Origin: Streptococcus suis
Lineage (GTDB): Bacteria; Bacillota; Bacilli; Lactobacillales; Streptococcaceae
Direction of reading: 5' to 3'
DNA: 64,000 nt
Assembly: GCA_022354845.1 (NCBI GenBank)
Contig: CP031970.1
Coordinates: forward strand, 868,001-932,000
Positions 29,378-55,135 of the stretch are shown piece after piece. A program made the translations under genes and the position numbers. Position 1 is the stretch's first letter; each line of letters opens with the position of its first letter. Under the pieces are notes generated by a model. That model was not told the DNA's origin. It ran no database searches and saw only the letters and a program-made list of their open reading frames with translations.

Positions 29378-30624
<1,247 letters not shown>

Positions 30625-30631
30625 GAAATGG

Positions 30632-30657
30632 AAGGCTGGGCTTTTGTCCAAGCCTTT
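30632..30657 (+). terminator. Terminator-like hairpin between rmlB and rmlD
   Basis: AAGGCT (30632-30637) and AGCCTT (30651-30656), with inner GG/CC pairs, precede a short T-rich stretch. It may attenuate transcription or stabilise the upstream mRNA; read-through into rmlD is expected. Confidence 0.4.
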
Positions 30658-30676
30658 CTTAAAATAAGGAGTAGAC

Positions 30677-32013: not shown

Positions 32014-32043
32014 TTGTTTAAATGCTCCAGATTGTGCTATAAT
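32014..32043 (+). promoter_or_regulatory. Promoter of the autolysin gene
   Basis: TTGTTT (32014-32019), an 18-bp spacer and the extended -10 TGCTATAAT ending at 32043 precede the GTG start by about 100 bases. Confidence 0.6.
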
Positions 32044-32145
32044 TTATTTTACAGATTTAGTATTTTTATGGTTTTCCTAATGATCCAGTTATCGTTTGGT
32101 TGTGTTTTGAATATAGATTTGAATATGAGATTTGAGGAGGAGAAA

Positions 32146-37265: not shown

Positions 37266-39818
37266 TCATTCAAATAAGTCCTCTAAAGGTCTTTTATCAA
37301 CGGCACTGTTGTATTCGAGCTGTAAATATGTTTGGTAGAGCGATAGGTTTGATAAGTCCTCAATTTGTTGGCCACTACCATCTAAATTACCCCAGCTAGT
37401 AATGATAGGTAGCTCGAGTTGCATATCACTCACAAACTGCTGATAAGGTGATCGAGGAAGTGCATACTCGGATTCGGAAAGTATATTCATTAAATATGGA
37501 ACGAGATAGTTTGGGCTTATCGTTATAGCTTCCCGTTCATTGATATCAAAATTCGCCCAAATCACAAATGGAGTAGAATATTTGGAGGCGGGATTACTTT
37601 CATCCACAAACTGTGAATAAAATTCTTGACTTAAACTTGGTTGGTGATCACCGTACATAACGATGACTGTTGGTTCTTTATAAGAACTGAAATAAGTAAT
37701 TAAATCTGCAAAAGCTTCATCTGTTTTCTTTAGACTTGTCAGGAATTCTGTTTCAGCTAAGTATTCGGATGTTGAACCATTAATGCTAACTTCGCGAGGA
37801 TAGGTTTCTTCTGAATTTAGATACCCACCATGACCTTGCATGGTAACTACAAAGCTAAATAACGGAGTATCTCCTTTTTGCTCATAGAGTTCTTTTATTC
37901 CGTTGAATAGAAATTGATCAGATGGCCAACTTCTATCGGATGTAAAATCTGCTAAAGTATTAATAGCAGGATTAGAGTCAGAAAAATAACTTTGATCAAA
38001 ACCTAATAAAGGATAAACAATCTTTCGATTATAATTTATTCCAGTTTGTGGATGAAGTGCCACAGTGTCATAATTTTTATCTTTTAAATAAGAAGCAAAA
38101 CTTGGGCGTTCTTGCGTGATTATCTGCTGGTAAGGAAATAGATTTGATGATAATAAACTTATTGCATTACTTGTTAAAACTTCATATTCTGTATTTGCTG
38201 TACCACCACCGTAAACCGAGACGTTAAGCGTTCCATGTACAGCATTATCTAATAAAGCATGTTGATTTAATAATGGATCCGGTGAGATACTTAAGTTTTG
38301 TAAAGTTGAAAAATCACTCTGAGATTCATTTTGTATAAAAATAATATTTGGTTTGGTTGTGCTTGTATATGTATCTGAGGAGTATGTCTCAAGTAGTTGC
38401 TCAAGGTTTGATGTCGAGTATCCCTCTGGTTTTGATATTTTGCTATCTTCGTAGAACGATACAAGCGAGAGTGGGAGTCCATATTGACCGTAGGTAACTT
38501 GCATTTTCCAGTAGTCTAAAGTAATTTCAGCATTGTGAACTAAAGATTGAATTGATGTAGGTAATACAAGTGTTATCGCTAAATATCCGATTGTTATGCG
38601 GATAAATCGTTTAAACCATTTAAAATCAAATATTGTTTTATTTATTGCCTTGGGAAAAAAATTGGGAAGTGTTAATTTTGGAAGAATTGAAAAGTAAGTA
38701 TTTAAAAATAATGTAAAAAATATGCTTTGTAACATCCGATTATTGAGAGTTATTGTGATACTAGAAGCAACATTTAAAGCATCTTTAATTTGGAAAATAT
38801 TATAGAACAGAAGTGGTGTTCCTCTGCTAGTAATCAAAATTTGATTACTTATTCCAATTATTGCAGAAATAGAAAGTATAAAAATACTTGCAAACCTGAA
38901 ATTAGTCATAAGAAAAACTATAAAGAATAGTATACTAATAATAAGTAAATTATAACGAATATTTTCAATTGATAATGTAGAAAATTGTGAATAACTATTT
39001 TCTATAATAAACAGGGAGAATATTGGAATAGATGCAAAATTAAAAAGAATGAATAGATTTTTACATGCTACAAATAGCTTATTATTCAATTGGCGATATC
39101 CGATAAAACTCGCATACAATATTAGCGTAAAAGTGGTCAATAATAGGTTTATCTCTGCTTTGTTAAAACTTGAATTAAAAAGTGCTAACTCATCTCGATA
39201 CAATAATGGAAAAAATTTTGAAGTTAAAAAATTTTGAATTCCGATAAGACATAAAATAAGAATTATGTCTCTGAATCTAATCCTCCAAGTGGCATTTCCC
39301 AGAGTATAAAATATTAGGCCCATAAATAAAATTATAATATGAATGTACCAAAAATGATTTTCTGAGCTTAGTTTAGTTGAGTGAGCCGTCTCAAGAAAAA
39401 ATAGATTTTTCGAGTCTTTTCCAATAGAAGTATCAAGTGTTTTTATAAGTTTATCGTCAATGTATATATGGATTATTTTAGGTTCATCACTAACTCTATA
39501 CTCAAAGGATATGGATTGAATAGGTGTTGGCAGATTGAACTCCATCACATTATCTTCAATTTCTGAAATATAAAAAGTATTTACAACATTTTGAGATACA
39601 GTATACCAATCATTCCTAACAACAAATTCACCCAGATTGTATTTTCCGTTAATTTGTATTCCATCGATATATTGTTGAGTTTCTTCTGCAATTATACGAA
39701 CATTTCCATTGTTATTCGCAACTCCTAGCTCGTTTTTAATCAAATCAATATATTTAATAAACGAGCAGCCTAGGAGTATAACAATAATCCAATGAAAAAA
39801 AAGCTTGATTAATTTCAT
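37266..39818 (-). CDS. Membrane-bound LTA-synthase-like phosphoglycerol transferase (GacH-like)
   Basis: About 850 residues. The N-terminal 450 residues hold an initial signal-anchor, an extracellular segment of about 100 residues and about ten transmembrane helices. The C-terminal part is an alkaline-phosphatase-fold (sulfatase/LtaS) domain. Its active-site Thr is in YGGGTANTEYEVLTSN, and metal ligands are in NIIFIQNESQSDF (Glu), VTMQGHGGY (His) and VIVMYGDHQPS (Asp-His). Size and layout match GacH/SccH, which adds glycerol phosphate from phosphatidylglycerol to rhamnan side-chain sugars. ATG 39818 is preferred to TTG 39830, though neither has a good SD. It reads opposite to the rhamnan genes, converging on the IS. 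LtaS itself is shorter. Confidence 0.82.
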   Translation of the reverse strand: MKLIKLFFHWIIVILLGCSFIKYIDLIKNELGVANNNGNVRIIAEETQQYIDGIQINGKYNLGEFVVRNDWYTVSQNVVNTFYISEIEDNVMEFNLPTPIQSISFEYRVSDEPKIIHIYIDDKLIKTLDTSIGKDSKNLFFLETAHSTKLSSENHFWYIHIIILFMGLIFYTLGNATWRIRFRDIILILCLIGIQNFLTSKFFPLLYRDELALFNSSFNKAEINLLLTTFTLILYASFIGYRQLNNKLFVACKNLFILFNFASIPIFSLFIIENSYSQFSTLSIENIRYNLLIISILFFIVFLMTNFRFASIFILSISAIIGISNQILITSRGTPLLFYNIFQIKDALNVASSITITLNNRMLQSIFFTLFLNTYFSILPKLTLPNFFPKAINKTIFDFKWFKRFIRITIGYLAITLVLPTSIQSLVHNAEITLDYWKMQVTYGQYGLPLSLVSFYEDSKISKPEGYSTSNLEQLLETYSSDTYTSTTKPNIIFIQNESQSDFSTLQNLSISPDPLLNQHALLDNAVHGTLNVSVYGGGTANTEYEVLTSNAISLLSSNLFPYQQIITQERPSFASYLKDKNYDTVALHPQTGINYNRKIVYPLLGFDQSYFSDSNPAINTLADFTSDRSWPSDQFLFNGIKELYEQKGDTPLFSFVVTMQGHGGYLNSEETYPREVSINGSTSEYLAETEFLTSLKKTDEAFADLITYFSSYKEPTVIVMYGDHQPSLSQEFYSQFVDESNPASKYSTPFVIWANFDINEREAITISPNYLVPYLMNILSESEYALPRSPYQQFVSDMQLELPIITSWGNLDGSGQQIEDLSNLSLYQTYLQLEYNSAVDKRPLEDLFE

Positions 39819-39867
39819 ATTTACTAACAATTCTAAGTTTTATATTTTTATGTGAAAGCCAGTACAC

Positions 39868-39896
39868 ATTATAACAAATTTTTCTAATTTACTCAA
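39868..39896 (-). promoter_or_regulatory. Promoter of the GacH-like gene
   Basis: On the minus strand TTGAGT (39896-39891), a 17-bp spacer and TATAAT (39873-39868) precede the gene by about 50 bases. The interval to 40048 also holds the opposing rgpA promoter. Confidence 0.65.
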
Positions 39897-40008
39897 AATT
39901 TGTTTTTTAAATTTAAAAGTTGAATATGGAAAAAATAAGCATGTGTGTGAAGCCTAAATGATACTGAAACCAAAACTACTGATAGAATTAGGAAATTATT
40001 TCAAAAAA

Positions 40009-40017
40009 TGGTATAAT
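40009..40017 (+). promoter_or_regulatory. Extended -10 promoter of the rhamnan locus
   Basis: TGGTATAAT (40009-40017) lies 32 bases before the rgpA-like ATG; TGGAGAGGA at 40036 provides the SD. Confidence 0.55.
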
Positions 40018-40048
40018 GAAAAGAACTGCTATTTGATGGAGAGGATTC

Positions 40049-41197
40049 ATGAAACACGTTTTTATTATCGGTAGTCGTGGACTGCCTGCAAAATATGGTG
40101 GCTTTGAGACCTTTGTCCAACAATTGGTGAGCCATCAGGAATCTGAGGAGATTCAGTACCATGTAGCGTGCTTGTCTGATACAAGTCATCATCAGCATTC
40201 CACCTACCTGGGTGCAGATTGCTTTACCATTAATCCACCAAAACTTGGACCTGCTCGTGTGATTGCTTATGATATGATGGCGATTACTTATGCCCTTAAA
40301 ATCATAAAGGAACAGCAGATAGAGCGACCAATTTTCTATATCTTGGGAAATACCATAGGTGGCTTCATAGTGCCTTTTGCAAAAATGATTCACTCTGTTG
40401 GAGGTACCTTGTTTGTCAATCCAGATGGTTTGGAGTGGAAACGTGCAAAATGGGCTAAACCAGTTCAACGTTATCTAAAATTTTCTGAGAAAATGATGGT
40501 TCGTAATGCGGATTTGATTGTCGCTGACAATGAAGGTATCGAAGATTACCTTCAGTCTGAATACTCAGCTACAAATACAACTTTTATAGCATATGGTACA
40601 GATTTAATACCGACAACTCTGACGAACGAATCAGAGAAGGTTCGTCACTATTTTGAAAAATGGAAAATAAAAGAGAAAGAATATTACCTGATAGTTGGTC
40701 GCTTTGTCCCAGAAAATAATTATGTAACAGCTATCAAGGAATTTATGGCCAGCAAGACAAAACGTGACTTGGTCATTGTAGCCAATCATGAAGGCTCTGC
40801 TTATTTCCAAAAGCTCAAAGAGGAGACGGATTTTGCATCTGATCCACGTATCAAATTTGTTGGAACAGTGTACGATCAAGAACTACTAAAGTATCTTCGA
40901 CAGGAGTGTCGTGCCTATATCCATGGACATGAAGTTGGTGGAACAAATCCTGGTCTACTCGAGGCCTTGGCACAAACCAATGAAAATTTGGTTTTAGGTG
41001 TTGATTTTAATAAAAAAGTTGCCCTGAAAGGTGCTCATTATTGGAGCAAAGATGGAGGAAATTTGGCTCATTTGATTGATCAAATAGATGGACAAGCAGA
41101 ATTCATCGAGCTTGGAAAAACTGCAAAAGAACACATGCAAGAAGCCTATACATGGGAAAAAATCGCACGTGAGTACGAGGAATTATTTTTACTATGA
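40049..41197 (+). CDS. rgpA: Rhamnan-initiating glycosyltransferase, RgpA/GacB-like
   Basis: A 382-residue GT4-type enzyme with the DUF1972 N-terminal domain (HVFIIGSRGLPAKYGGFETF), the ILGNTIGGFIVPFAK segment, NPDGLEWKRAKWAK and a C-terminal donor domain with HEVGGTNPGLLEALAQTNENL. In streptococci this family (RgpA, GacB, Cps2T) adds the first L-rhamnose to GlcNAc-PP-undecaprenol. It begins the locus and overlaps the next gene (ATGA). Confidence 0.88.
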   Translation: MKHVFIIGSRGLPAKYGGFETFVQQLVSHQESEEIQYHVACLSDTSHHQHSTYLGADCFTINPPKLGPARVIAYDMMAITYALKIIKEQQIERPIFYILGNTIGGFIVPFAKMIHSVGGTLFVNPDGLEWKRAKWAKPVQRYLKFSEKMMVRNADLIVADNEGIEDYLQSEYSATNTTFIAYGTDLIPTTLTNESEKVRHYFEKWKIKEKEYYLIVGRFVPENNYVTAIKEFMASKTKRDLVIVANHEGSAYFQKLKEETDFASDPRIKFVGTVYDQELLKYLRQECRAYIHGHEVGGTNPGLLEALAQTNENLVLGVDFNKKVALKGAHYWSKDGGNLAHLIDQIDGQAEFIELGKTAKEHMQEAYTWEKIAREYEELFLL

Positions 41198-42123
41198 AAG
41201 TCAATATTTTGATGTCGACCTATAATGGTCAACAGTTCTTGGCTGAGCAAATTCGTTCTATTCAAGAACAGTCATACACAGACTGGACTCTCTTCATCCG
41301 TGATGATGGTTCCAGTGACAATACAAAAGAAATCCTTAAGGATTTTGAGCATCAAGATAGTCGAATTCATCTTATTGATAGTGATAAGAGTGACAATCTT
41401 GGAGTTATAAAAAGTTTTCACAAACTCGTGAACCATGATAGGGCTGACTATTATTTTTTTAGTGATCAGGATGATGTTTGGTTGCCAAATAAATTGGAAC
41501 TTAGTCTAAAGGAAGCTCAAAACTATCTAGCTGACCTTCCCTTAATGGTTTATATGGATTTAAAAGTGGTTAATCAAGATTTAGAGATTATGACTGAAAG
41601 CATGGTTAAATCTCAATCTCACCATGCCAATACAGAATTGGTGCAAGAGTTGACCGAAAACACGGTTACAGGTGGGGTCGCCATGATCAATCATGCTCTC
41701 GCTGAAATGTGGCAAGAGACGGATGATATACTCATGCACGATTGGTACTTAGCCTTACTTGCTTCAGCCTTTGGGAATTTGGTGTTTATTGATCAACCAG
41801 CGGAACTGTACCGCCAGCATTCTGATAATGTTTTAGGGGCTCGTACTCTCTCAAAACGCTTTAAAAAATGGATTCGTCCTCATATTTTATTTGCGGTTTA
41901 TTGGGACTTGATTAAAAATAGTCAAAAACAAGCCCGTCATTTACTACAAATGCCTCTATCTCAGTCAAATAGAGAGTTAATTGAAGCATTTGTAACCATT
42001 ATGGACAAACCAATGCTTGAACGATTCAGGATTTTGAGAAAATATGGATTGAAAAAAAACAAAGCCTTCCATACATTAGTATTCACAACACTGATTGTGA
42101 CAAAATTTGCATATAAGGAATAG
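41194..42123 (+). CDS. rgpB: Rhamnosyltransferase RgpB/GacC-like (GT2)
   Basis: A 309-residue GT-A glycosyltransferase. The N terminus VNILMSTYNGQQFLAEQIRS, RDDGSSDNTKEIL, the DxD-like FFSDQDDVWLPNKLE and the HDWYLALLASAFG catalytic region are characteristic of family 2 rhamnosyltransferases. RgpB/GacC adds the second and third rhamnose residues of the rhamnan backbone. It lies in the canonical order before the ABC permease. Confidence 0.88.
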   Translation: MKVNILMSTYNGQQFLAEQIRSIQEQSYTDWTLFIRDDGSSDNTKEILKDFEHQDSRIHLIDSDKSDNLGVIKSFHKLVNHDRADYYFFSDQDDVWLPNKLELSLKEAQNYLADLPLMVYMDLKVVNQDLEIMTESMVKSQSHHANTELVQELTENTVTGGVAMINHALAEMWQETDDILMHDWYLALLASAFGNLVFIDQPAELYRQHSDNVLGARTLSKRFKKWIRPHILFAVYWDLIKNSQKQARHLLQMPLSQSNRELIEAFVTIMDKPMLERFRILRKYGLKKNKAFHTLVFTTLIVTKFAYKE

Positions 42124-42125
42124 TT

Positions 42126-42932
42126 ATGAATTTATTTAATAAAGAAAACCAAATTCTCTTAAGAGAGATGGTTAAAACTGATTTTAAATTACGTTACCAA
42201 GGGTCTATCATTGGACACCTGTGGTCAATTTTAAAACCATTTATGATGTTTACAATAATGTATTTGGTTTTTGTGCAGTTTCTAAAATTTGATGATGGAA
42301 CCCCCCATTATGCTGTCAGTTTATTACTTGGAATGGTGACTTGGAACTTTTTTACAGAAGCTACAAATATGGGGATGCTTTCCATTGCAGCGCGCGGTGA
42401 CTTATTGCGTAAAATTAGCTTTCCTAAAGAAATTATCGTTATTTCATCAATTATTGGTGCGGCAATCAACTATGGAATAAATATTGCAGTAGTTATGCTT
42501 TTCGCCATTATCAATGGTGTACAGCTTGATTTTGGTGTGTTGATGTTATTGCCAGCATTTGTAGAGTTAATTACTTTTGCAACTGGACTGGCATTCATTT
42601 TGTCTAGCTTTTTTGTAAAATATCGTGATATGGGACCGATTTGGGAACTAGTCTTGCAAGCAGGGATGTACTCGACACCAATTATTTACTCCATCACCTA
42701 TATCATACAAAGAGGGCATACTGGGGTAGCCAAAATTATGATGATGAATCCTATTGCTCAAGTTGTACAAGATCTTCGACATCATATTGTCTTTGATGGG
42801 GCAACAATTTCATGGGATATTTATGACAATAAATGGATGGTAGCTGTTCCATATCTCATATCTATTGTAGTATTTATTATTGGATTTACAATCTTTAAAA
42901 AGAATTCTAAGAAATTTGCGGAGATTCTATAA
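42126..42932 (+). CDS. rgpC: Polysaccharide ABC exporter permease RgpC-like
   Basis: A 268-residue ABC-2 permease with six hydrophobic segments. The N-terminal LLREMVKTDFKLRYQGSIIG and LWSILKPFMMFTIMY motifs are typical of Wzm/TagG/RgpC proteins that export undecaprenyl-linked polysaccharides. It is GacD-like in the group A naming. It starts 3 bases after rgpB and overlaps the ATPase start (TAATG). Confidence 0.9.
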   Translation: MNLFNKENQILLREMVKTDFKLRYQGSIIGHLWSILKPFMMFTIMYLVFVQFLKFDDGTPHYAVSLLLGMVTWNFFTEATNMGMLSIAARGDLLRKISFPKEIIVISSIIGAAINYGINIAVVMLFAIINGVQLDFGVLMLLPAFVELITFATGLAFILSSFFVKYRDMGPIWELVLQAGMYSTPIIYSITYIIQRGHTGVAKIMMMNPIAQVVQDLRHHIVFDGATISWDIYDNKWMVAVPYLISIVVFIIGFTIFKKNSKKFAEIL

Positions 42933-44155
42933 TGTCAAACAAAGAAATTGCATTGAAAGTTGAGTCAGTAAGCAAGACTTTTAAACTACCAACCGAATCA
43001 ACTCAAAGTTTGAGAACAACATTGGTAAACTATTTTAGAGGAATCAAAGGCTATAAAGAGCAGCAGGTGCTGAAAGATATATCTTTTGAAGTAGAAAAAG
43101 GGGATTTTTTTGGAATTGTTGGTAGAAATGGTTCAGGGAAATCTACACTGTTGAAGATTATTTCACAAATCTATGTTCCTGAAAAAGGAAAAGTAAGCGT
43201 AAATGGTACACTTGTTCCCTTTATAGAACTAGGAGTTGGTTTCAATCCGGAGCTAACAGGGAGAGAGAATATTTATTTGAACGGAGCCCTTCTTGGTTTT
43301 ACTCGGTCTGAAATTGACACCATGTATGATGACATCGTAGAGTTTGCTGAACTTGAAGAATTCATGGATCAGAAATTAAAGAATTATTCGAGCGGTATGC
43401 AGGTACGTTTGGCTTTTTCAATTGCTATAAAGGCAGAAGGTGACATCTTGGTACTTGATGAAGTCTTGGCTGTAGGGGATGAAGCTTTTCAGAGAAAATG
43501 TTTTGAGTATTTTGCCAGTCTAAAAAAACAAAAGAAAACAGTTATTTTGGTCACTCATGATATGGCATCTGTGCAACGTTTTTGTACAAAGGCCATGATG
43601 ATTGATTCGGGAGAAATTTCTATCATTGGCGATCCCAATATGGTAGCTGGAAAATATACCTTACGTAATGTAGAGCACCGAACTGATAGTAAGAAAGTTG
43701 AAGGAGAAACTGTAGAAAAAGGTGAAAAGCGGAAGAATAGTATTGATGTTTTATCAATTCGAACCAAAAATTCGAGCAAAGCAACCGATACTTTTTATCT
43801 TACGGATGATATTTTGGTCGAGGTGAAATATAAAGTAAATAAGCCTTTAACCTTTACTATAGGAACTTCTTTTAGAGATTATGGTGATAATCTGGTTGCA
43901 GGAATAGGAAGTATAGCAGATATGGCTCTTCTGAATAAAGAAGAAGGTGAATATCTAGCTGAGTGCAGAATTCCAGCATCACAATTTATCAAGGGTGAAT
44001 ATTCTGTAAATGTTTCATTTTGGAGTGATACACGTGAACTTCTTGGATATGAAGATATCACAATGGAAGGAAATCCGCCTAAGATAAATATTGTAGAAGC
44101 AAATGTTGCTCGCAGTGGTCAATTTAATGCTCAAGGCACTTGGAGTGAAATTTAG
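42932..44155 (+). CDS. rgpD: Polysaccharide ABC exporter ATPase RgpD-like (Wzt type)
   Basis: A 407-residue ABC ATPase. Walker A is GIVGRNGSGKSTLL near residue 70, signature YSSGMQVRLAFSIAIKAEG, Walker B ILVLDEVLAVGDEAF and the H-loop VTHDMAS. The C-terminal 150 residues form a beta-rich Wzt-like domain (DTFYLTDDILVEVKY onward), which in Wzt proteins recognises the polysaccharide terminus. It pairs with the RgpC-like permease and would export the rhamnan. Confidence 0.92.
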   Translation: MSNKEIALKVESVSKTFKLPTESTQSLRTTLVNYFRGIKGYKEQQVLKDISFEVEKGDFFGIVGRNGSGKSTLLKIISQIYVPEKGKVSVNGTLVPFIELGVGFNPELTGRENIYLNGALLGFTRSEIDTMYDDIVEFAELEEFMDQKLKNYSSGMQVRLAFSIAIKAEGDILVLDEVLAVGDEAFQRKCFEYFASLKKQKKTVILVTHDMASVQRFCTKAMMIDSGEISIIGDPNMVAGKYTLRNVEHRTDSKKVEGETVEKGEKRKNSIDVLSIRTKNSSKATDTFYLTDDILVEVKYKVNKPLTFTIGTSFRDYGDNLVAGIGSIADMALLNKEEGEYLAECRIPASQFIKGEYSVNVSFWSDTRELLGYEDITMEGNPPKINIVEANVARSGQFNAQGTWSEI

Positions 44156-44163
44156 GAGATAGT

Positions 44164-45393
44164 ATGGAATATAAGTTCGCACTATTAAATTATTCAACAG
44201 AGAATATTGGTGATGAAGTTCAAAGCATCGCCGCTAGACGTTTCCTACCACGCATTGATGAGTATGTTGATAGGGATAAGTTGGCGGAGTGGGAACCAAA
44301 TCAACCAACAAAGTTAATTATGAATGGTTGGTATAATAGAGATCCGAAGGGATGGCCACCTAAGAATAGTGACCTTTTTAAACCTCTTCTGACTTCTATA
44401 CATGTTAGTGTGAAGGATGATGCGGTTAGAGAGGCATTTGAAACGACTGAAAGTTTAGATTTTCTTAAAAAAAATGGTCCTGTTGGGGCGCGTGATGAAC
44501 AAACGCTAGAGTTTTTCAAGCAACAGGGATTAGAAACCTATTTTTCCGGATGTGTCACTTTAACTTTGCAACGTGATCCGGACATTAAGAAACAAGACTT
44601 CATTTTAGCTGTAGATGTTCCTAAAGATGTCGTTAAAAAAATGCGAGAATCAACTAAACGTGAAGTCATCGAATTATCGGTATACCATTACCCATTTCTA
44701 GAAAATGAGGAACGTTTTAAAGTGGCGGAGTACATACTAGCTCTTTACCAATCAGCCCATGCAGTTGTAACGACAAGGTTGCATTGCTTTATGCCATCAT
44801 TAGCATTTGAAACACCTGTTCTTCTAATCAAGGATTCAGAAAAATATGAACCTGCACGTTATGGTGGTTTAGATACTTTGCCACATAGTTTGACTGATAA
44901 AGAATATATTGAACATCCTGAGAAGTATCCACTTGATAACCCTTTTCCAAATCCTACAGAATTTCAAACTATTCGTGAGGAAATGATAGAACGGATTCAG
45001 GGGTTTACAGGTTATTCAAATAATGCAACTTTTCGAACATTACCATTGAGTGAGTTTCCACTAAGTATTTCGGCTATTCGTATTTTCGCATTTACTTGGT
45101 CCTCCACCTTTAAGAAAGCTTTATTAGAAGGTGATGTTGCTTGGGATGAGGAAAGAATAGCAGATTTTGAACGGATAGTAGCTGAGCAGGCAGAAGAAAT
45201 TTCAATTTTGAATACTACGAAACAGGAGTTGCATCAGGATATTAAATCTTTGAATAATGTGATTGTTAGCAAAGCCACTGAAATTGACTATCTTACAAAT
45301 GAAATTAAAAAAATAGAAAACTCACTTTCATGGAAATTAACTAAGCCTCTTAGAGAAATGAAGAGTGTATTGAAAAAAAATATAAAAAGATAG
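44164..45393 (+). CDS. Polysaccharide pyruvyltransferase-family protein with coiled-coil tail
   Basis: A 409-residue protein. Residues about 1-300 resemble the polysaccharide pyruvyl transferase fold (PF04230-like): FALLNYSTENIGDEVQSIA, GPVGARDEQTLEFFKQQG, FSGCVTLTL and AHAVVTTRLHCFMPSLAFETPV, with the conserved R-LH motif. A C-terminal coiled coil (about 335-390) ends in IENSLSWKLTKPLREMKS, a tail seen in streptococcal glycan enzymes. Pyruvyl transferases move a PEP-derived pyruvate ketal onto a sugar. Whether this protein is catalytic or structural is not shown. It lies 8 bases after rgpD in the same operon. Confidence 0.72.
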   Translation: MEYKFALLNYSTENIGDEVQSIAARRFLPRIDEYVDRDKLAEWEPNQPTKLIMNGWYNRDPKGWPPKNSDLFKPLLTSIHVSVKDDAVREAFETTESLDFLKKNGPVGARDEQTLEFFKQQGLETYFSGCVTLTLQRDPDIKKQDFILAVDVPKDVVKKMRESTKREVIELSVYHYPFLENEERFKVAEYILALYQSAHAVVTTRLHCFMPSLAFETPVLLIKDSEKYEPARYGGLDTLPHSLTDKEYIEHPEKYPLDNPFPNPTEFQTIREEMIERIQGFTGYSNNATFRTLPLSEFPLSISAIRIFAFTWSSTFKKALLEGDVAWDEERIADFERIVAEQAEEISILNTTKQELHQDIKSLNNVIVSKATEIDYLTNEIKKIENSLSWKLTKPLREMKSVLKKNIKR

Positions 45394-45401
45394 GTGAAAA
45401 T

Positions 45402-46649
45402 ATGAACATTTTCGGAAAAGTCTTTAGGACATATAAGAATGAAGGCTTGCGCGCTGTTAGTCGAAAAGTTTATCAACAGTTGACCTCAACTGGACAGAAC
45501 ATCCAAGTTGGAGTAAGCGTACCTTCAAAAATTGATATGAATACTCTGCCTCAAATGCCACAATTTGTCGATCTAGCTACTGCAGACTATATCAATTATC
45601 CATATATAAAACCAGAAAAATTAGATAAAGAATTTCTAAATATTGCTTGGGTATCTCCTCCAGTTGGACCAGGCGGAGGTGGGCATACGACTATTTCACG
45701 TTTTGTAAAATATTTACAAAGTCAAGGACATCATATAACATTTTATATCTATCATAACAATACAATTCCTCAATCAGCCAAAGAAGCACAAGATATTTTT
45801 TCGCGTTCTTATGGTATTGATGTTGATGTTGAAGAGTTAGAGGATTTTAAAAATCAAGACCTTGTGTTTGCAACAAGTTGGGAAACTGCTTATGCAGTCT
45901 TCAATCTTCAAGGGGAACGCCTTCATAAGTTTTACTTTGTTCAAGATTTTGAACCAGTTTTCTTTGGTGTAGGGTCGCGATATATGTTGGCTGAAGCAAC
46001 CTATAAATTTGGTTTTTATGGTATTACCGCTGGAAAATGGCTTGTAAATAAAGTTGGACAATATGGGATGCAATCTGACTACTTTGATTTTGGTGCGGAT
46101 ATTGATATTTATAAGCCAAAATCCCCTATCGTTAAAAAGAAGAAAATTGCCTTTTATGCTCGTGCCCATACGGAGCGTAGGGGATTTGAAATCGGAGTAA
46201 TGGCTTTAAAGATTTTTAAAGAACGTCATCCGGAATACGAAATCGAATTCTTTGGTCAAGATATGTCTAATTATGATATTCCTTTTGAATTCCTTGACCG
46301 CGGTATTTTAAATAAGGCGCAATTAGCAGAGGTTTATCACGAAAGTGTAGCTTGTCTTGTTCTCTCTTTAACAAATGTTTCATTATTACCATTGGAACTT
46401 TTGGTGGCTGGTTGTGTACCAGTCATGAATGATGGGGATAATAATCGTATGGTACTTGGTGAAATTGATGATATTCTCTATACAGAAGCCTATCCTGTGG
46501 CCCTAGCGGAAAAACTTTGCCAGGCTGTTGAGCGTTCCGATGTCAATGAACATGCTAAAGAAATGAGCGATAAATATACGGGTCTATCTTGGGAAGAGAG
46601 TTATAAAAAAGTTGAAATGATTATTCGTCGAGAGGTTTTGAATGGCTGA
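45402..46649 (+). CDS. Glycosyltransferase, WsaF-like rhamnosyltransferase (GT4)
   Basis: A 415-residue GT-B enzyme. The motif AWVSPPVGPGGGGHTTISRF, YFVQDFEPVFFGVGSRY, AHTERRGFEIGVMALKIF and SLTNVSLLPLELLVAGCVPVM, with the ExxAxG-like donor-site segment, match the WsaF group of rhamnosyltransferases. It probably adds rhamnose to the backbone or side chain. The N-terminal 80 residues are extra. It overlaps the following GT2 gene by 8 bases. Confidence 0.78.
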   Translation: MNIFGKVFRTYKNEGLRAVSRKVYQQLTSTGQNIQVGVSVPSKIDMNTLPQMPQFVDLATADYINYPYIKPEKLDKEFLNIAWVSPPVGPGGGGHTTISRFVKYLQSQGHHITFYIYHNNTIPQSAKEAQDIFSRSYGIDVDVEELEDFKNQDLVFATSWETAYAVFNLQGERLHKFYFVQDFEPVFFGVGSRYMLAEATYKFGFYGITAGKWLVNKVGQYGMQSDYFDFGADIDIYKPKSPIVKKKKIAFYARAHTERRGFEIGVMALKIFKERHPEYEIEFFGQDMSNYDIPFEFLDRGILNKAQLAEVYHESVACLVLSLTNVSLLPLELLVAGCVPVMNDGDNNRMVLGEIDDILYTEAYPVALAEKLCQAVERSDVNEHAKEMSDKYTGLSWEESYKKVEMIIRREVLNG

Positions 46650-47619
46650 TAAATTGAAAGCGACGGTATTTATTCCAGTTTATAACGGAGAACGGGACCA
46701 TTTAGAAGAAACATTATCTGCTTTATACCGTCAAGTCACAGATTTTAAGTGGGATGTTCTAATAACAGATTCAGGTTCTTCTGATAATTCGGTTGCAATT
46801 ATCAATCATTTTTCTGAAAAATACGGTAATCTCCGTCTTCTTCATTTATCAAAGGAAGAATTTTCGCATGGGAAAACTCGCCAAATGGCTGCTGAGATTA
46901 GTCAAGGTGAAATAATGGTCTATCTTACTCAAGACGCAGTTCCTCATAATGAGCAGTGGTTAGCGGAAATGGTAAGACCCTTTGCGATGCACTCGGATAT
47001 CGTGGCCGTATTAGGAAATCAAAAACCACGTCATTACTGTTTTCCTGCCATGAAGTACGATATTCTAGAGGTATTTAATGAACAGGGCGTATCTGATTCA
47101 TTGACTTTCTGGCAGAGATTAGACGAGAGCCGAAGAGGAAAATATACGAAAGAATCTTTTTATAGTGATGTGTGTTCTGCTGCACCACGTCGATTTCTAA
47201 CTGAAAAAATTGGTTATCGCCCTGTAGCTTATTCAGAAGATTATGAATACGGGAAGGATATATTAGACGCAGGCTATATCAAGGTTTATAATGCAAATGC
47301 AATTGTTGAGCATTCGAACGATGTGCGACTATCGGAGTATAGACAACGTATATTCGATGAAACATATAATGTTCGTTTGAATAGTGGCTTAACAAATAAG
47401 GTTTCTATTTTCTCGGTTGTTACAAATGTATTCAAAGCAAGTTTGAAAGATAGTGTAAAAATTATTTCTGATAAAGATTATAATTGGAAAAGAAGAATAT
47501 ATTGGCTTTTGGTTAATCCACTCTTTCATATTGAAAAATGGCGAGGTATTCGTCTAGCGAATCGTGTTGATTTAAACCAGGATATTTCGCAATATTCTTT
47601 AGAAAAGAAGAAAGGGTAG
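46642..47619 (+). CDS. Family 2 glycosyltransferase, probable rhamnosyltransferase
   Basis: A 325-residue GT-A enzyme. It begins KATVFIPVYNGERDHLEETL; DSGSSDNSVAIINHF binds nucleotide and LTQDAVPHNEQWL holds a DxD-equivalent. The SHGKTRQMAAE and YSEDYEYGKDILDAGY segments are typical of RfbF/RgpF-neighbourhood rhamnosyltransferases using dTDP-rhamnose. It is coupled to the preceding gene, so both likely build the same repeat. Confidence 0.78.
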   Translation: MADKLKATVFIPVYNGERDHLEETLSALYRQVTDFKWDVLITDSGSSDNSVAIINHFSEKYGNLRLLHLSKEEFSHGKTRQMAAEISQGEIMVYLTQDAVPHNEQWLAEMVRPFAMHSDIVAVLGNQKPRHYCFPAMKYDILEVFNEQGVSDSLTFWQRLDESRRGKYTKESFYSDVCSAAPRRFLTEKIGYRPVAYSEDYEYGKDILDAGYIKVYNANAIVEHSNDVRLSEYRQRIFDETYNVRLNSGLTNKVSIFSVVTNVFKASLKDSVKIISDKDYNWKRRIYWLLVNPLFHIEKWRGIRLANRVDLNQDISQYSLEKKKG

Positions 47620-47626
47620 AAGTGGT

Positions 47627-49114
47627 ATGCAAATACAAAAAATAGTGATGGAGAAATTACGTAATATCTTCATTGGAATTTTCTTAGTCTTTTTCGCACA
47701 ACTTACTTTGCCAATTCTATTTGAGTGGAAAATCAATTTGAATTTTTGGTACATTGTAATTGCTATTGTTCTCTATTTTTTATTAGTAGATTTCAAAAAT
47801 CCTGAAAAAATAGCTCGAAATGCTTTTCTTCTCATTTTGTCTTTTGGAATAGTTATTGCTTTGATTCGACCAGTTCAATATGCTTTGGATGAAGAATCCC
47901 ATTTAGAAAATACAATTGGGATTTCTGACAGTTTTCTATTTGAATACAGTGATGAAACAATTTCTGATTATGATTCTGTCTTTTTACATGACGGTATTCG
48001 TAATCAAGCAAACTTTAGGGGAGATGATTACTGGTATAATGTAGAACATCAACCGAGCAAAATTGCAGGTGTTCCGAAATCTTTTGATAATCCTTCTTTT
48101 TTACCAGGGGCAATAGGCTGGAATATTGGTCGTTTGGTTTCAAATAAGGTTTATATCTCGTACTACATAGGGAGAATAGTCCATGTATTAACCTATGCGC
48201 TATTAGTGTTCCTTTCTATTAAGATTAGTAAAGTATATCAAAAAATGCTTTATTTAATGGGGACACTACCATCTGCTCTTTATGTGGTTTCTGGCTACCA
48301 CTATGATTATTTATATTATGGTGCTTCACTTATTTTGGTTGCTTTGCTTACGAATGTTTTGGCTCGAGAAGAAAAAATTACCTCCAAGTTTGTTGTCAAA
48401 TTTCAAAGTTTAGTGCTTTTATTCGTTTTTTCTAAGTTTCCTTTTGTTCTGTTAGGAACCTTATTAACCTTCTTACCAAAAGAATACTTTGCCTCTAAGA
48501 AAGCAAGGATACAAGGAGTAGTATCGTTCTTTCCAGTCATTCTATTTGCTGTAATTTATTCAGGGATCTTAAACATATTTAATTTTTCTGGTTCTGTGAC
48601 GGGAGAGAGTCCTGGATTAGGTTACTTTTTGAAGCATCCGTTACCAATTATTAGAACTATGCTTAGCGCACCAGAGGCAATTTTAGAGAACTTTATTCGA
48701 CGTCCTCTTCAATATATTAGTCATGATTCGGGGCTACTAATTACAGCTATAACACTAATTGTGTTATCGTTACTATTTGTACTTATTCTTTGTACACGCA
48801 TTACAGTACCTAAGATATGGGGAACATATACAGTGTTGCTTATGTTAGGGATTACCTTTTTGATGGTATATGCAATTACAGGAGATCCTCGTGTATATAA
48901 TCCTGGCAATATTTCTGTCGGTGGAGTGCAAGGAAGATACTATTATTTTATGATCTGTCTAATCCCATTGTTTTTGGGAAATTGGTTGAACTCTTTTATA
49001 CCGATTATCCAACCAAGTGAGGAAGTGGATCGTAAATTGACGGTTGCTATTCAATATCTTTTGTCATTTTTAGTAATCTTTACAGTAAGTGTTGGGTTCT
49101 ATACTCAAATTTAA
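47627..49114 (+). CDS. DUF2142-family membrane protein, candidate GT-C glycosyltransferase
   Basis: A 495-residue polytopic protein with about 11-12 hydrophobic segments. An extracellular loop after the third helix begins PVQYALDEESHLENTIGIS; the acidic DEESH is like the Asp/Glu catalytic loop of GT-C enzymes in DUF2142 proteins. A large external region (residues about 95-150) follows. It would use an undecaprenyl-phosphate sugar outside the membrane. In the group A locus GacL has that role for GlcNAc, so this is its positional analogue; family identity with GacL is not established. Confidence 0.7.
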   Translation: MQIQKIVMEKLRNIFIGIFLVFFAQLTLPILFEWKINLNFWYIVIAIVLYFLLVDFKNPEKIARNAFLLILSFGIVIALIRPVQYALDEESHLENTIGISDSFLFEYSDETISDYDSVFLHDGIRNQANFRGDDYWYNVEHQPSKIAGVPKSFDNPSFLPGAIGWNIGRLVSNKVYISYYIGRIVHVLTYALLVFLSIKISKVYQKMLYLMGTLPSALYVVSGYHYDYLYYGASLILVALLTNVLAREEKITSKFVVKFQSLVLLFVFSKFPFVLLGTLLTFLPKEYFASKKARIQGVVSFFPVILFAVIYSGILNIFNFSGSVTGESPGLGYFLKHPLPIIRTMLSAPEAILENFIRRPLQYISHDSGLLITAITLIVLSLLFVLILCTRITVPKIWGTYTVLLMLGITFLMVYAITGDPRVYNPGNISVGGVQGRYYYFMICLIPLFLGNWLNSFIPIIQPSEEVDRKLTVAIQYLLSFLVIFTVSVGFYTQI

Positions 49115-49134
49115 CAAGGCGAGAAGGAGATAAC

Positions 49135-50415
49135 TTGAGAGGAGAAACTAAACCAATAGTAGATATTAAGTATCAATATTTTTGGAATATGCTTGGGACA
49201 ATTAGTTCGACAGCTGTTTCTATAGTTCTACTTTTAATCGTATCAAGATTAACATCTCCGAGTATTGCAGATTCTTTTAGTATTGCTTTTACGCTGGGAC
49301 AACAATTTTTAGTGATAGGCTTATTTGGAGTTAGAAACTTTCAAGCAACAGATGTTAATGAGAGCTATTCATTTAGTGCGTACTTTATTTCTAGAGTAAT
49401 GAGCATATTACTAATGTTAGTTAGTTTAATGCTTTATTTGAATGCGACAGGCTTTACTAATGAAAAATATTGGATAATCGTTTTCATGGTTCTTTATCGA
49501 GCGTGTGATGCCATTTCAGATGTTTATCAAGGAGAATTTCAACAAAAACAGCGTTCGGATCTAGCAGGGAAAGTTTTATTCTACCGTAGCTTGTCTACTA
49601 TTGTTGTGTTTATTCTAGTTTTGTTAGTTACTGGTAATCTTTTAGTAGCTACAATTTCACTTTTTCTTACCAACTTAATATTGTCCTATTTCTTAGATAT
49701 TAGGTATTATCAATTAAACTTCTCCAGAAGTAGCTTCAAAATTAACTCTAGTTGGCAAGGCAGTTTGAATATCCTAAAATTATGTTTGTCTCTATTTATT
49801 AGTAGTTTTATCATCAATTACATTTTTAATTTACCAAAAATTATTATTGATAGTTTTATAACTGTAGGACAACTTGGAGAAGGTTTGCAACGAGATTTCA
49901 ATATATTATTTATGCCAACATTTGTCCTTAATCTTTTACTAATGCTTTTAAGACCAATGTTAACAGAAATATCAATCTTTTTGCATAACGGTCAAATTAG
50001 TGCATATAACAGACAGGTTAAAAAGATTTTTGGTGCGTTAATAGGTTTACATCTATTAGTTTTAGTTGGAGGCTATTTACTAGGAATTCCAATACTAAGT
50101 TTTATTTTTGGAGTAAACTTGTCACCATATCTATTATCATTTATTATTTTACTTGTTGGTGCTGGATTTAATGTTTATTCGGTGATGATTGATAATGTAC
50201 TAACAATTCATCGCAAGCAATATTATCTACTATTCTCGACTATACTGGCGTTCATATTTTCTAGTGCAATAACTAAAGTGCTTATTAGTAAGTTTGCTAT
50301 TTTAGGTGCATCTATTAGTTTTACTTTGACAATGTTGGTTTATTTCATGTCAAGTTTGCTGGTTTATCATATTGTTAATAGGAAGATAGTGAAAATGGAA
50401 ATAAACATAAAGTAG
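49135..50415 (+). CDS. Flippase, Wzx/MATE-like polysaccharide translocase
   Basis: A 426-residue membrane protein with 12 or so hydrophobic helices, typical of MVF/Wzx oligosaccharide flippases. The start is the TTG at 49135, since AAGGAGA (49124-49130) lies 4 bases ahead and no ATG fits. The ABC exporter should carry the rhamnan itself, so this protein more likely flips a lipid-linked side-chain sugar, as proposed for GacK. The AT-rich composition resembles its neighbours from 48 to 51 kb. Confidence 0.75.
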   Translation: MRGETKPIVDIKYQYFWNMLGTISSTAVSIVLLLIVSRLTSPSIADSFSIAFTLGQQFLVIGLFGVRNFQATDVNESYSFSAYFISRVMSILLMLVSLMLYLNATGFTNEKYWIIVFMVLYRACDAISDVYQGEFQQKQRSDLAGKVLFYRSLSTIVVFILVLLVTGNLLVATISLFLTNLILSYFLDIRYYQLNFSRSSFKINSSWQGSLNILKLCLSLFISSFIINYIFNLPKIIIDSFITVGQLGEGLQRDFNILFMPTFVLNLLLMLLRPMLTEISIFLHNGQISAYNRQVKKIFGALIGLHLLVLVGGYLLGIPILSFIFGVNLSPYLLSFIILLVGAGFNVYSVMIDNVLTIHRKQYYLLFSTILAFIFSSAITKVLISKFAILGASISFTLTMLVYFMSSLLVYHIVNRKIVKMEINIK

Positions 50416-50474
50416 AACGTGGATACTGAGTTTTATTGAAACTTAAATTTATATTGTAGTATGGAGAGAAATTT

Positions 50475-51254
50475 ATGGAAAATAATCACACTTTTGTGAT
50501 TTGTGCTTATGGTGATAGTCCATATTTAGAAGAATGTATTCTTTCATTGAGAAATCAAACAGTAAAATCAACTATTATTCTTTATACCTCGACACCTAGT
50601 GAGCACATTGAACACTTGTGTCAGGAATATTCAATTCCTTATCATGTGAAGCAAGGTGGTGGGATTGGTATTGATTGGAATAATGCTCTATCATTTGCCA
50701 ATACTCGCTTTGTTACGATTGCACATCAAGACGACTTGTATAAAGAAAATTATGCTGAGAAAATTTTGTCTGAGTTCCGTCGGGATTTAAAGCATACAAT
50801 TGTGTATTCTGACTATGTTGAGTATCGTGATGGTCGAGAAATAGAAGCGAATACAAATTTAAAGATTAAAACTTTAATGTTGAATGTGCTGTCCTTGTTT
50901 CCAAATTGGATGTTTTGGAGAAATAGAATTCTAGCTTTTGGCAATGCTATTTGTTGCCCAGCCGTGACCTATGATATGGATAAACTAAATGGTTTTCAGT
51001 TCGAAACTAAAATGAGAACAAATTTAGATTGGTATGCGTGGTACGATATTAGTTCGCATTATCGCGGAAGTTTTGGTTATGTTTCTGATAAACTGATGTG
51101 CCACCGTATTCATCAGGATTCTGAAACATCAAACACAATTAGAGATAATGTCAGGACAAAAGAAGATTTGGAAATGTATAGACTATTTTGGCCGGAATTC
51201 ATGGTTAAAATTCTGATTTATTTCTATGAAAAAAGTCAAGAGTCTAATGGATAG
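50475..51254 (+). CDS. Family 2 glycosyltransferase
   Basis: A 259-residue GT2-type enzyme: HTFVICAYGDSPYLEECILSL at the start, a central HQDDLYKENYAEKIL with the DxD-like acids and a GWxxWYD-like DWYAWYDISSHYRG. It is one of at least four transferases in the locus, and its acceptor and donor are not determined. A GGAGAG SD precedes the ATG; a 59-base gap separates it from the flippase. Confidence 0.75.
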   Translation: MENNHTFVICAYGDSPYLEECILSLRNQTVKSTIILYTSTPSEHIEHLCQEYSIPYHVKQGGGIGIDWNNALSFANTRFVTIAHQDDLYKENYAEKILSEFRRDLKHTIVYSDYVEYRDGREIEANTNLKIKTLMLNVLSLFPNWMFWRNRILAFGNAICCPAVTYDMDKLNGFQFETKMRTNLDWYAWYDISSHYRGSFGYVSDKLMCHRIHQDSETSNTIRDNVRTKEDLEMYRLFWPEFMVKILIYFYEKSQESNG

Positions 51255-51262
51255 GGGAGAAT

Positions 51263-51961
51263 ATGTTTAATAAGAAATCAGATACACTGATTATTATTCC
51301 AGCTTACAATGAAGAAGGTTCAATAGAAGCGGTTGTGCGAAATCTAGAAAAGAACTTTCAGGAATTTGATTACGTTGTTGTGAACGATGGTTCTAAAGAT
51401 ACGACTTCTGAAATTTGCCACCGAAATCGATATAATATTATTGATTTGCCAGTGAATCTAGGTTTAACAGGTGCCGTTCAGACTGGTTTTAAATATGCCT
51501 ACAAGATGGGGTATAGACAGGCAGTTCAGTTTGATGGCGATGGTCAACACCTTCCAGAATATGTTGGGGACTTAGTAGCCGAAATTCAAAAAGGTCAAGA
51601 TTGTGTCATTGGTTCGCGGTTCGTATCTGAACCTAAAAATAATTCTTTACGTATGTTAGGTAATCGTCTAATCAGTTGGTCAATAAAATTAACAACAGGT
51701 CAAACGATTACCGATCCAACATCTGGAATGCGAATGTTTAATCAAGAGTTGATTAAGGACTTTGCATTAAATGTTAACTATACTCCGGAACCTGATACCA
51801 TTTCTTTTCTGATTCGCCAAGGCTATAAGATAAAAGAAGTCCAAGTAAAAATGCTTGAAAGACAAGCGGGTCAATCCTATTTAACTTTATCTCGTTCAAT
51901 TAAGTATATGATTCATATGTTCACATCAATTTTGTTGATACAAAATTTTAGGAGGAAATGA
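51263..51961 (+). CDS. Lipid-phosphate sugar transferase, GacI/DPM-like (GT2)
   Basis: A 232-residue GT2 enzyme of the dolichyl-phosphate mannose synthase type. It has DTLIIIPAYNEEGSIEAVVR, VVVNDGSKDTTSEIC, AVQFDGDGQHLPEYV (DxD) and SRFVSEPKNNSLRMLGNRLI, TDPTSGMRMF. GacI makes GlcNAc-phosphate-undecaprenol with a small partner GacJ. The overlapping downstream DUF2304 gene fits that pairing. The sugar used here is unknown. Confidence 0.8.
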   Translation: MFNKKSDTLIIIPAYNEEGSIEAVVRNLEKNFQEFDYVVVNDGSKDTTSEICHRNRYNIIDLPVNLGLTGAVQTGFKYAYKMGYRQAVQFDGDGQHLPEYVGDLVAEIQKGQDCVIGSRFVSEPKNNSLRMLGNRLISWSIKLTTGQTITDPTSGMRMFNQELIKDFALNVNYTPEPDTISFLIRQGYKIKEVQVKMLERQAGQSYLTLSRSIKYMIHMFTSILLIQNFRRK

Positions 51962-52290
51962 TGGCTCTTCAATTTCAATTATTACTTATTGTGACAGCCG
52001 TTTTGACTTCGGCAGTTATTCTATTGAATATTCGAAAATCCAATATTCAAATAGAAGATAGTATCTTTTGGTTCTTTTTTTCAGGTATTCTAGTTATTTT
52101 TGCACTTGTACCCCAAGCCATTGGCCAATTATCGGATTGGATTGGGGTCGAATCTCCTGCTAATTTCGTGTTTTTAGCTATTATTTTTTTACTAATAGTT
52201 AATCAGTACCGTATTGCATTAAAGCAAGCCAAATTAGAACTCAAACTGAAAGATCTTATTCAATATATAGCTATTGAAACTAAGAAGTAA
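51961..52290 (+). CDS. DUF2304 membrane protein, GacJ-like partner
   Basis: A 109-residue protein with three hydrophobic segments (residues about 4-22, 35-55 and 70-88) ending in a cationic tail with LKDLIQYIAIE. It is DUF2304-like. ATG 51961 is 5 bases after GGAGG (51951-51955) and overlaps the preceding stop; the ATG at 51958 is too close. In group A Streptococcus GacJ binds and stimulates GacI; this arrangement is the same. It ends the locus, before a terminator. Confidence 0.75.
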   Translation: MALQFQLLLIVTAVLTSAVILLNIRKSNIQIEDSIFWFFFSGILVIFALVPQAIGQLSDWIGVESPANFVFLAIIFLLIVNQYRIALKQAKLELKLKDLIQYIAIETKK

Positions 52291-55049: not shown

Positions 55050-55058
55050 AATAAGAAA

Positions 55059-55088
55059 AATGATAGGAATGTGGCCTATCATTTTTTT
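55059..55088 (+). terminator. Terminator of the cia operon
   Basis: AATGATAGG (55059-55067), 7-nt loop and CCTATCATT (55075-55083), then T residues. Confidence 0.85.
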
Positions 55089-55135
55089 GTCGGTTCAAAA
55101 GTATGATATACTAGGATGGAGGAGAGGAGTAGGTC

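Follow-up and report, generated by a model that had tools for sequence, protein, structure and literature searches.

We examined a stretch of 64,000 nucleotides from Streptococcus suis (GenBank assembly GCA_022354845.1, contig CP031970.1, positions 868,001 to 932,000; hereafter the window), which corresponds to G000:C1:868001-932000 of a 2.03-Mb single-contig Streptococcus genome (G000). Positions 37266-52290 of the window hold a locus of the S. suis/S. parasuis group for a rhamnose-type wall polysaccharide exported by an ATP-binding cassette (ABC) transporter. The locus includes gacI/J/K/L-like side-chain genes, and in it the place directly after the exporter ATPase, the RgpE/GacF slot, is taken by a protein of family PF04230 with pyruvyltransferase motifs and a coil-like tail. 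Families were called in the window with Pfam and NCBIfam profiles against curated cut-offs, and the closest named relatives of the locus proteins belong to S. suis, S. parasuis and Streptococcus sp. A first-pass annotation made from the letters alone had listed the open reading frames (ORFs) and read them as a rhamnose wall polysaccharide locus with an ABC exporter; all of these ORFs are present, and the Pfam and NCBIfam matches bear out both their families and this reading.

37266..39830, minus strand: GacH-type (sulfatase-fold) membrane phosphoglycerol-transferase candidate, divergent from the operon (PF00884, E 2e-34)
40049..41197, plus strand: GacB/RgpA-type beta-1,4-rhamnosyltransferase, adding the first rhamnose to lipid-linked N-acetylglucosamine (GlcNAc) (NCBIfam Cps2T, 590.7 bits, cut-off 500)
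41194..42123, plus strand: family 2 glycosyltransferase (GT2) in the GacC/RgpB position, the second gene of canonical loci (PF00535, E 8e-22)
42126..42932, plus strand: ABC exporter permease, RgpC/GacD/Wzm (PF01061, E 2.6e-12)
42932..44155, plus strand: ABC exporter ATPase, RgpD/GacE/Wzt, 407 amino acids (aa) (PF00005, E 6e-21)
43697..44152, plus strand: C-terminal domain of the ATPase, putative cap-recognising carbohydrate-binding module (CBM) (Wzt_C, E 3.2e-4, below cut-off)
44164..45393, plus strand: PF04230 pyruvyltransferase-type protein with coil-like C-terminal tail, in the RgpE/GacF slot (PF04230, E 9.8e-14, 52.4 bits, cut-off 25.3)
45031..45393, plus strand: coil-like region and SLSWKLTKPLR tail of that protein, residues ~290-409, motif at 387-397 (heptad heuristic and alignment of relatives)
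45402..46649, plus strand: WsaF-like family 4 glycosyltransferase (GT4), predicted backbone rhamnosyltransferase (WsaF_C, E 7e-15, and WsaF_N, E 1.7e-8, both over cut-off)
46642..47619, plus strand: GT2, predicted backbone partner of the WsaF-like enzyme (PF00535, E 1.3e-19)
47627..49114, plus strand: DUF2142 membrane protein, GacL-type side-chain transferase with a presumed extracytoplasmic role (PF09913, E 5.7e-36)
49135..50415, plus strand: flippase-like polytopic protein with a presumed GacK function (phmmer match to the GacK-position protein of locus L157, 301 bits)
50475..51254, plus strand: GT2 of the side-chain set (PF00535, E 1.4e-11; matches beside GacI in L128 and L158)
51263..51961, plus strand: GacI-type GT2, predicted maker of the lipid-linked side-chain sugar (PF00535, E 3.6e-25)
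51958..52290, plus strand: GacJ-type DUF2304 partner of GacI (PF10066, E 6.5e-26)
27430..31528, plus strand: dTDP-rhamnose genes rmlA, rmlC-like, a 161-aa ORF without match, rmlB and rmlD (NCBIfam)

The twelve forward genes overlap or are separated by at most about 60 bases and look like a single operon; a scan of the locus for promoters and terminators gave signal at chance level only. GC content per 2-kb bin is 0.285-0.385 between 38 and 52 kb and 0.369-0.453 in the bins before 38 kb. In S. suis 10581 (locus L044, on the same contig as locus L178 of genome G119), the gene set is shared with the window from the divergent GacH-type gene to DUF2142; its pyruvyltransferase is 95% identical, and the side-chain genes beyond DUF2142 differ.

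The PF04230 gene starts 8 bases past wzt. Characterised pyruvyltransferases share NxGD, RxxxS/T and H motifs (PMC10629545), and all three groups are found in the window protein (N14/G16/D17, R110/T114 and H207). The first-pass annotation had suggested a pyruvyltransferase with a coiled coil directly after the ATPase and had staked this on the presence of the pyruvyltransferase residues; the profile over its cut-off and the motifs in place support the pyruvyltransferase reading, with a tail that is coil-like. For comparison, loci were fetched for the 80 best among 313 relatives from named genomes. The seven checked motif positions read NGDRTRH in 61 of these 80, and the histidine equivalent to H207 is conserved in every one. 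Within Streptococcus such proteins are rare: 8 of 147 genomes gave a match of any kind, a full-length match with the tail occurs only in the window genome and G119, and the remaining matches are 39-49% identical over the core or part of it. The PF04230 protein is a probable pyruvate-adding enzyme.

The slot was surveyed in 60 loci with a GacB gene, taken from 59 of 69 matching genomes plus G119; ten genomes were not used, namely the window's own, one whose hit was cut, and eight in which a paralogue of 52-54% identity was the sole match. Genes 2-4 of the canonical loci are matched by the window's GT2, permease and ATPase. The gene directly after the ATPase was readable in 57 of the 60. After phmmer clustering, with Pfam run on representatives (4 of 28 GT2, 1 of 13 RgpF, 2 of 11 GT4 and 2 of 4 Glyco_trans_4_5-like proteins), the slot proteins fell into 28 GT2, 13 RgpF itself, 11 GT4, 4 weakly Glyco_trans_4_5-like and 1 PF04230, to which the window adds its own. 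A C-terminal motif runs across heads of different families: it is present in 28/28 GT2, 11/11 GT4 and 1/1 PF04230 proteins, and in 0/13 RgpF and 0/4 Glyco_trans_4_5-like proteins, the last having a looser tail that lies outside the pattern. The GT2 and GT4 tails contain S-R/K-x-W, typically as SRRWTIPTKIINFFRRK, and the window protein terminates in SLSWKLTKPLREMKSVLKK. The 13 loci in which RgpF follows the ATPase directly (L124, L125, L132, L137, L139, L143-L145, L155 and L179-L182) carry no tail motif in the slot position or elsewhere in the fetched stretch.

The last 130 residues of slot proteins and controls were scored with a rough home-made heptad heuristic, on which the window protein reaches 1.68 with a peak at residue 354, a value to be read with the known false positives of the score. 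A score of at least 1.3 was reached by 41 of 44 non-RgpF slot proteins (GT2 26/28, GT4 10/11, Glyco_trans_4_5-like 4/4, PF04230 1/1), by 7/13 RgpF slot proteins, and among controls by 1/60 GacB proteins, 1/60 GacC-like proteins and 0/57 permeases, but also by 19/57 exporter ATPases. The score sets the slot proteins apart from most of their neighbours, short of proof of a coiled coil. In most sampled streptococcal loci, the slot holds proteins of the RgpE/GacF type, with another enzyme head on a coil-like tail. Outside Streptococcus the survey was mixed: among 13 loci read, with the slot picked by script in 11, about six showed coil-like tails by eye (L195, L196, L200, L202, L203 and L207) and the others held other proteins.

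Among the PF04230 relatives, a coil-like tail is associated with ABC export. We took as tail all residues beyond the core, called it coil-like at a heptad score of at least 1.2, and counted as wzt any same-strand homologue of at least 75 bits. A wzt lies in the fetched locus of 26/41 coil-tailed and 2/39 coil-less relatives (Fisher p 1.9e-8), a p value that serves as a guide only, given the relatedness of the rows, the shortness of some contigs and the low specificity of the score. Division by plain tail length (at least 60 residues) gives 25/41 and 3/39. The gene lies within 100 bases of wzt in 10 of the 80 relatives, and the near-identical loci of Bifidobacterium felsineum and B. cebidarum have the order wzm-wzt-pvyT-wsaF-gt2, as in the window. 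The tail S-x-S/T-W-K/R-x-T-x-P-x-R is seen again in pyruvyltransferases from a Bacteroidota bin (L054), from Devosia (L084) and from Methanobrevibacter (L080, L102); L102 has it on two other proteins as well. Versions SxSWKLTxPLR, near-identical to the window tail, are carried by the pyruvyltransferases of the archaeal Methanobrevibacter loci L080, L097 and L102 and of the alphaproteobacterial Devosia L084; L080, L084 and L097 also contain a wzt homologue.

The exporter ATPase is divided in its conservation. With G119 excepted, its ATPase domain is 68-78% identical to those of other streptococci and its C-terminal domain of about 150 aa only 7-20%, while class means among canonical loci lie at 36-62% for the latter. 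Against canonical streptococcal loci alone, the window's ATPase and C-terminal domains show 68-74% and 12-20% identity, respectively. The best PDB sequence match of the ATPase is a 404-aa "ABC transporter" chain (8dku). The C-terminal domain alone found no match among PDB sequences and matches Wzt_C weakly (21.1 bits, under the cut-off of 30.4). The loci with GT2, GT4 or RgpF directly after the ATPase have one broad type of C-terminal domain in common, and the four WsaF loci with a Glyco_trans_4_5-like head have yet another, 65-83% identical within the group and averaging 28% identity to the domains of Bifidobacterium L045 and Saccharibacteria L048, L053 and L056. Inside Streptococcus, then, a different slot head goes with a different type of C-terminal domain, the behaviour expected of a cap-reading module, although three of the head groups have a broad type in common and the correspondence is not one to one across phyla. 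What the sequence itself shows is the gene content, the motifs, the slot, the synteny and the divergence of the ATPase domain.

The backbone enzymes also differ from the common type. The RgpF/GacG polymerase (PF05045) has zero matches across the whole window genome, and is present in 55 of 98 sampled Streptococcus genomes. Among the 60 comparison loci, 52 have RgpF, five have WsaF with a GT2 (L153, L154, L158, L175 and L178), none has both RgpF and WsaF, and three have neither within the fetched stretch; a GT2 following WsaF is also found in Bifidobacterium L045 and L046. We predict that the WsaF-like GT4 and the GT2 stand in for RgpF as backbone enzymes. WsaF belongs to a Geobacillus S-layer glycan locus, with which the window protein has the WsaF_N and WsaF_C domains in common; in streptococcal wall polysaccharide loci such as that of the window it occurs in place of RgpF. 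Two statements of the first-pass annotation need correction here. The locus has the primer GacB/RgpA-type rhamnosyltransferase of streptococcal rhamnan loci, but does not simply follow the streptococcal rhamnan scheme, since RgpF is missing genome-wide and the GacF/RgpE slot holds a PF04230 protein; and the WsaF-like transferase is not unique, as among the 60 loci it is found in four further Streptococcus genomes besides the near-identical G119 locus. With WsaF plus GT2 in 5/60 loci and RgpF in 52/60, the backbone type of the window is the rarer one, so that its polymer may differ from the alternating rhamnan of group A streptococci. The cluster described for S. suis makes a Rha-Rha-GlcNAc backbone (PMC13015895).

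With about even confidence, we propose that the PF04230 protein is a WbdD-like ruler and terminator that would add a pyruvate cap, alongside a replaced exporter C-terminal domain. GacB- and GacC-like enzymes would prime the chain on lipid-linked GlcNAc, and the WsaF-like GT4 and the GT2 would polymerise the backbone in RgpF's stead. The coil-like stretch and the S-x-S-W-x-x-T-x-P-L-R tail would hold the PF04230 protein at the polymerase or exporter. As soon as the growing chain is long enough to span the coil, the head of the protein would transfer pyruvate from phosphoenolpyruvate (PEP) to the chain's non-reducing end and so stop growth. The replaced ATPase domain would then recognise the capped chain. 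Once the polymer is exported, the GacI/GacJ/flippase set would supply sugars that the DUF2142 (GacL-type) protein attaches as side chains, and phosphoglycerol would be added by the GacH-type protein. The identities of the sugars, the pyruvylation, its terminal position, the length control and the role of the tail are what we infer in this scheme. A wider proposal, which we advance tentatively and at less than even confidence, is that streptococcal rhamnose polysaccharides end in a swappable cap: the slot terminator would combine an interchangeable head (GT2, GT4, GT4_5-like or pyruvyltransferase) with a coiled-coil ruler and a conserved tail, the cap-reading ATPase domain would be swapped with the head within Streptococcus, and the window locus would be the pyruvate-capped version.

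Terminators with coiled-coil rulers are established in Gram-negative bacteria, where a coiled coil joined to a terminal-modifying enzyme is the mark of a terminator (PMC11231755), and terminator systems pair with a CBM on the exporter (PMC10629545). With the WbdD and WbbB O-antigen systems the window shares a transferase head, a coil-like stretch and a C-terminal tail beside Wzm/Wzt with a C-terminal ATPase domain; it differs in its PF04230 head, predicted to be PEP-dependent, and in belonging to a Gram-positive wall polymer. Capping by RgpE and pyruvate terminators have each been proposed before, elsewhere. A 2022 paper cites RgpE as the proposed rhamnan capper in Lactococcus, after Theodorou 2019 (PMC9746298); work on Lactococcus in 2017 had proposed a terminal Glc or GlcNAc on the rhamnan, added by an unknown enzyme (PMC5596347), and the role of GacF in S. 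pyogenes was called unknown in 2019 (PMC6802508). For Burkholderia vietnamiensis and Pseudomonas protegens, pyruvate terminators have been named as candidates, as yet unproven (PMC10629545). Among the papers listed, no title or opening of an abstract pointed to a pyruvyltransferase in a streptococcal rhamnan locus, although Mann et al. 2019, who surveyed the chemistry of chain termination, may mention one earlier, and the stem "pyruv" is absent from the main text of the S. suis srp paper (PMC13015895). What is most likely new is the combination suggested by these genes, a pyruvate cap added by a coil-tailed terminator in the RgpE/GacF slot together with a WsaF/GT2-type polymerase. On the wider proposal of a swappable cap, the window locus would be, to our knowledge, the first candidate for pyruvate capping coupled to a ruler in the wall polymer of a Gram-positive bacterium.

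Several observations weigh against a terminator in this slot. In S. mutans the glucose side chain was lost on mutation of rgpE (PMC8327497), evidence in favour of a side-chain function for the slot, and 13 of the 57 readable loci have no separate slot protein. The heptad score also picks out exporter ATPases (19/57 at 1.3 and 33/57 at 1.2), the association of tail and wzt weakens to p ~1e-4 at score cut-offs of 1.3 and 1.4, and wzt is missing from the fetched stretch in 15 of the 41 coil-tailed relatives. The window's C-terminal ATPase domain is only 8-11% identical to those of the four other pyruvyltransferase loci L045, L048, L053 and L056, so that head and domain do not simply travel together. 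Finally, terminal pyruvate in Klebsiella O1 was shown without length control (PMC10629545), and a profile of 45 relatives searched against PDB sequences did not reach WbbZ (6x1l) or Pvg1p (5ax7), giving chance matches only (E 0.06 or worse). A strict rule by which the CBM follows the head was considered and rejected, as the Bifidobacterium and Saccharibacteria domains differ from the window's.

In the best-surviving alternative, the enzyme places pyruvate along the polymer, on repeat units or on a side-chain sugar, and the coil merely tethers it to the assembly complex. CsaB and WcfO are precedents, acting on residues within a secondary wall polymer and a capsule (PMC10629545), and short coil-less PF04230 proteins sit in loci without wzt, for example L055 and L063 of S. 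suis YS161; the coil-tailed forms, however, are enriched in wzt loci, and the window gene occupies the RgpE/GacF slot rather than a place amid the side-chain genes, so we consider decoration unlikely, if still to be taken seriously. A pyruvate cap that neither sets length nor gates export is a clearly less probable account. Its precedent is WbbZ of K. pneumoniae O1, which shares the pyruvyltransferase family motifs and an ABC-exported glycan with the window and is described as dispensable for length control (PMC10629545), and the match of the ATPase C-terminal domain to Wzt_C is weak; yet the O1 exporter is described as having no CBM and O1 as an exception among coiled-coil terminator systems (PMC11231755, PMC10629545), whereas the window has both a coil-like tail and a C-terminal ATPase domain. 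Least probable of all is another transferase of this fold, such as a glycosyltransferase, in the RgpE position: the scanned representatives of the other slot groups are glycosyltransferases or RgpF, the profile search found no solved pyruvyltransferase, and WbmX was initially taken for a GT-B glycosyltransferase, but PF04230 is over its cut-off here and all three published motif groups are present.

To compare the remaining genes with the gac locus, we used locus L157 of genome G044, whose genes encode, in order, 384, 310, 267, 401, 335, 581, 824, 231, 113, 428 and 498 residues; it was taken as a gac locus because these 11 lengths equal those printed for gacB-gacL (PMC12282279) within one residue. 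Its GacF (335 aa) is a GT2 protein, and its GacL (498 aa) is itself a DUF2142 protein (E 2.5e-49), 27% identical over 458 columns to that of the window. The contrast drawn in the first-pass annotation, a DUF2142 protein instead of an obvious GacL, accordingly falls, and we rejected DUF2142 as a novelty. The proposed gacI/J/K/L-type side-chain set did hold, with GacI-, GacJ- and flippase-like genes and the DUF2142 gene. The set (GacI, GacJ, flippase, DUF2142 and GT2) is most like those of L158 and L128, where all five occur. The GT2 at 51263 matches the GacI-position proteins of L128, L158 and L170 with phmmer scores of 363-381 bits, and its best NCBIfam profile is PpgS (99.6 bits, under the cut-off of 370). 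The protein at 49135 has no Pfam match even at E 10 and shows 11 transmembrane-like hydropathy peaks. A comparable set is found in Clostridia L116 and L120, where homologues of GacI (248-266 bits), GacJ, a DUF2142-like protein and a flippase lie beside a coil-tailed pyruvyltransferase and wzm/wzt. The suggested comparison of gene order with gac loci gave a mixed outcome: the window agrees with S. pyogenes gacA-L (via L157) in GacB, GacC, the ABC exporter, the GacI/J/K/L-type set and a GacH-type enzyme, but lacks GacG/RgpF, has a PF04230 protein where gac has the GT2 GacF, and differs in the ATPase C-terminal domain and in its GacH-type gene, which is divergent and of a sister clade.

This GacH-type gene probably starts 12 bases inside the listed ORF, because most full-length homologues among the matches listed have 849-851 aa. 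Its product matches GacH in the PDB (5wcx, E 5e-23) and has YGGGTAN and YGDH motifs; the sole other PF00884 gene of the window genome is LtaS-like with GKTSD, unlike the GGGTAN of the 37266 protein. A GacH-type gene lies in the same divergent position in 4 of the 60 loci (L124, L125, L128 and L178). We built a tree of 26 catalytic domains, from 13 found in whole-genome searches and 14 from comparison loci, one without the cut motif being dropped. In these 26 rows the 37266 protein did not group with GacH orthologues: the window, G119, G014, G022 and G023 form a divergent clade of five rows (support 96/91), sister to and apart from 16 GacH-clade rows (91/93). The earlier call of a gacH-like glycerol-phosphate transferase is thus supported, as a candidate, by motifs and GacH match and qualified by the sister clade and divergent coding. 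An unlinked 818-aa GacH-clade protein was found in three S. suis-like genomes (G014:C1:2349382, L187; G022:C1:1793875, L186; G119:C2:55793, L185), and not in the window genome, which has only two PF00884 genes. In G014 and G022 the divergent protein has 96-97% identity with one named from S. suis (P0146). The idea that the divergent gene is the missing S. suis GacH was weakened, as G014, G022 and G119 also hold the 818-aa protein. The S. suis glycerol-phosphate transferase is described as probably encoded elsewhere and unidentified (PMC13015895). Since the divergent protein belongs to a sister clade and the 818-aa protein to the GacH clade, either gene could be the one sought, and we regard them as two candidates.

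L124 and L125 are probably of the S. suis srp kind (PMC13015895). With srp the window shares the species group, an srpB-like start, a GacI-type gene and rml genes lying apart upstream, and L124 and L125 also have a divergent GacH-type gene upstream; unlike the window, they have RgpF-type proteins and no PF04230 slot protein. The srp paper describes a "rhamnan biosynthesis protein" and reports that commensal lineages vary in architecture (PMC13015895).

Around the locus, rmlA, rmlB and rmlD exceed their NCBIfam cut-offs and rmlC, at 93 bits, lies under its cut-off of 155.75. Between the rml genes and the locus, positions 32014-35679 encode a wall hydrolase of 1221 aa that combines six stretches of GBS_Bsp-like repeats with amidase_3 and glucosaminidase domains. 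An ISL3-family transposase gene at 35860-37186, immediately upstream of the locus, is broken into ORFs of 231 and 188 aa and probably represents a decayed insertion element. After the locus, 53012-56353 hold a response regulator, a histidine kinase and a transglutaminase-like protein; the regulator and kinase presumably form a pair resembling CiaRH.

What ends and measures streptococcal rhamnose polysaccharide chains is unsettled in the papers of 2017, 2019 and 2022, and a natural variant whose slot holds a chemically different head bears on this question. It makes the chain end testable, because a pyruvate ketal gives a clear methyl signal in nuclear magnetic resonance whose position, at the chain end or elsewhere, can be assigned. 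For S. suis, the divergent gene of the locus and the unlinked gene are both GacH-type candidates for the glycerol-phosphate transferase left unplaced by the 2026 paper, and the locus suggests that S. suis-group strains of the window type make a polymer unlike the pathogenic-lineage one studied as a vaccine target.

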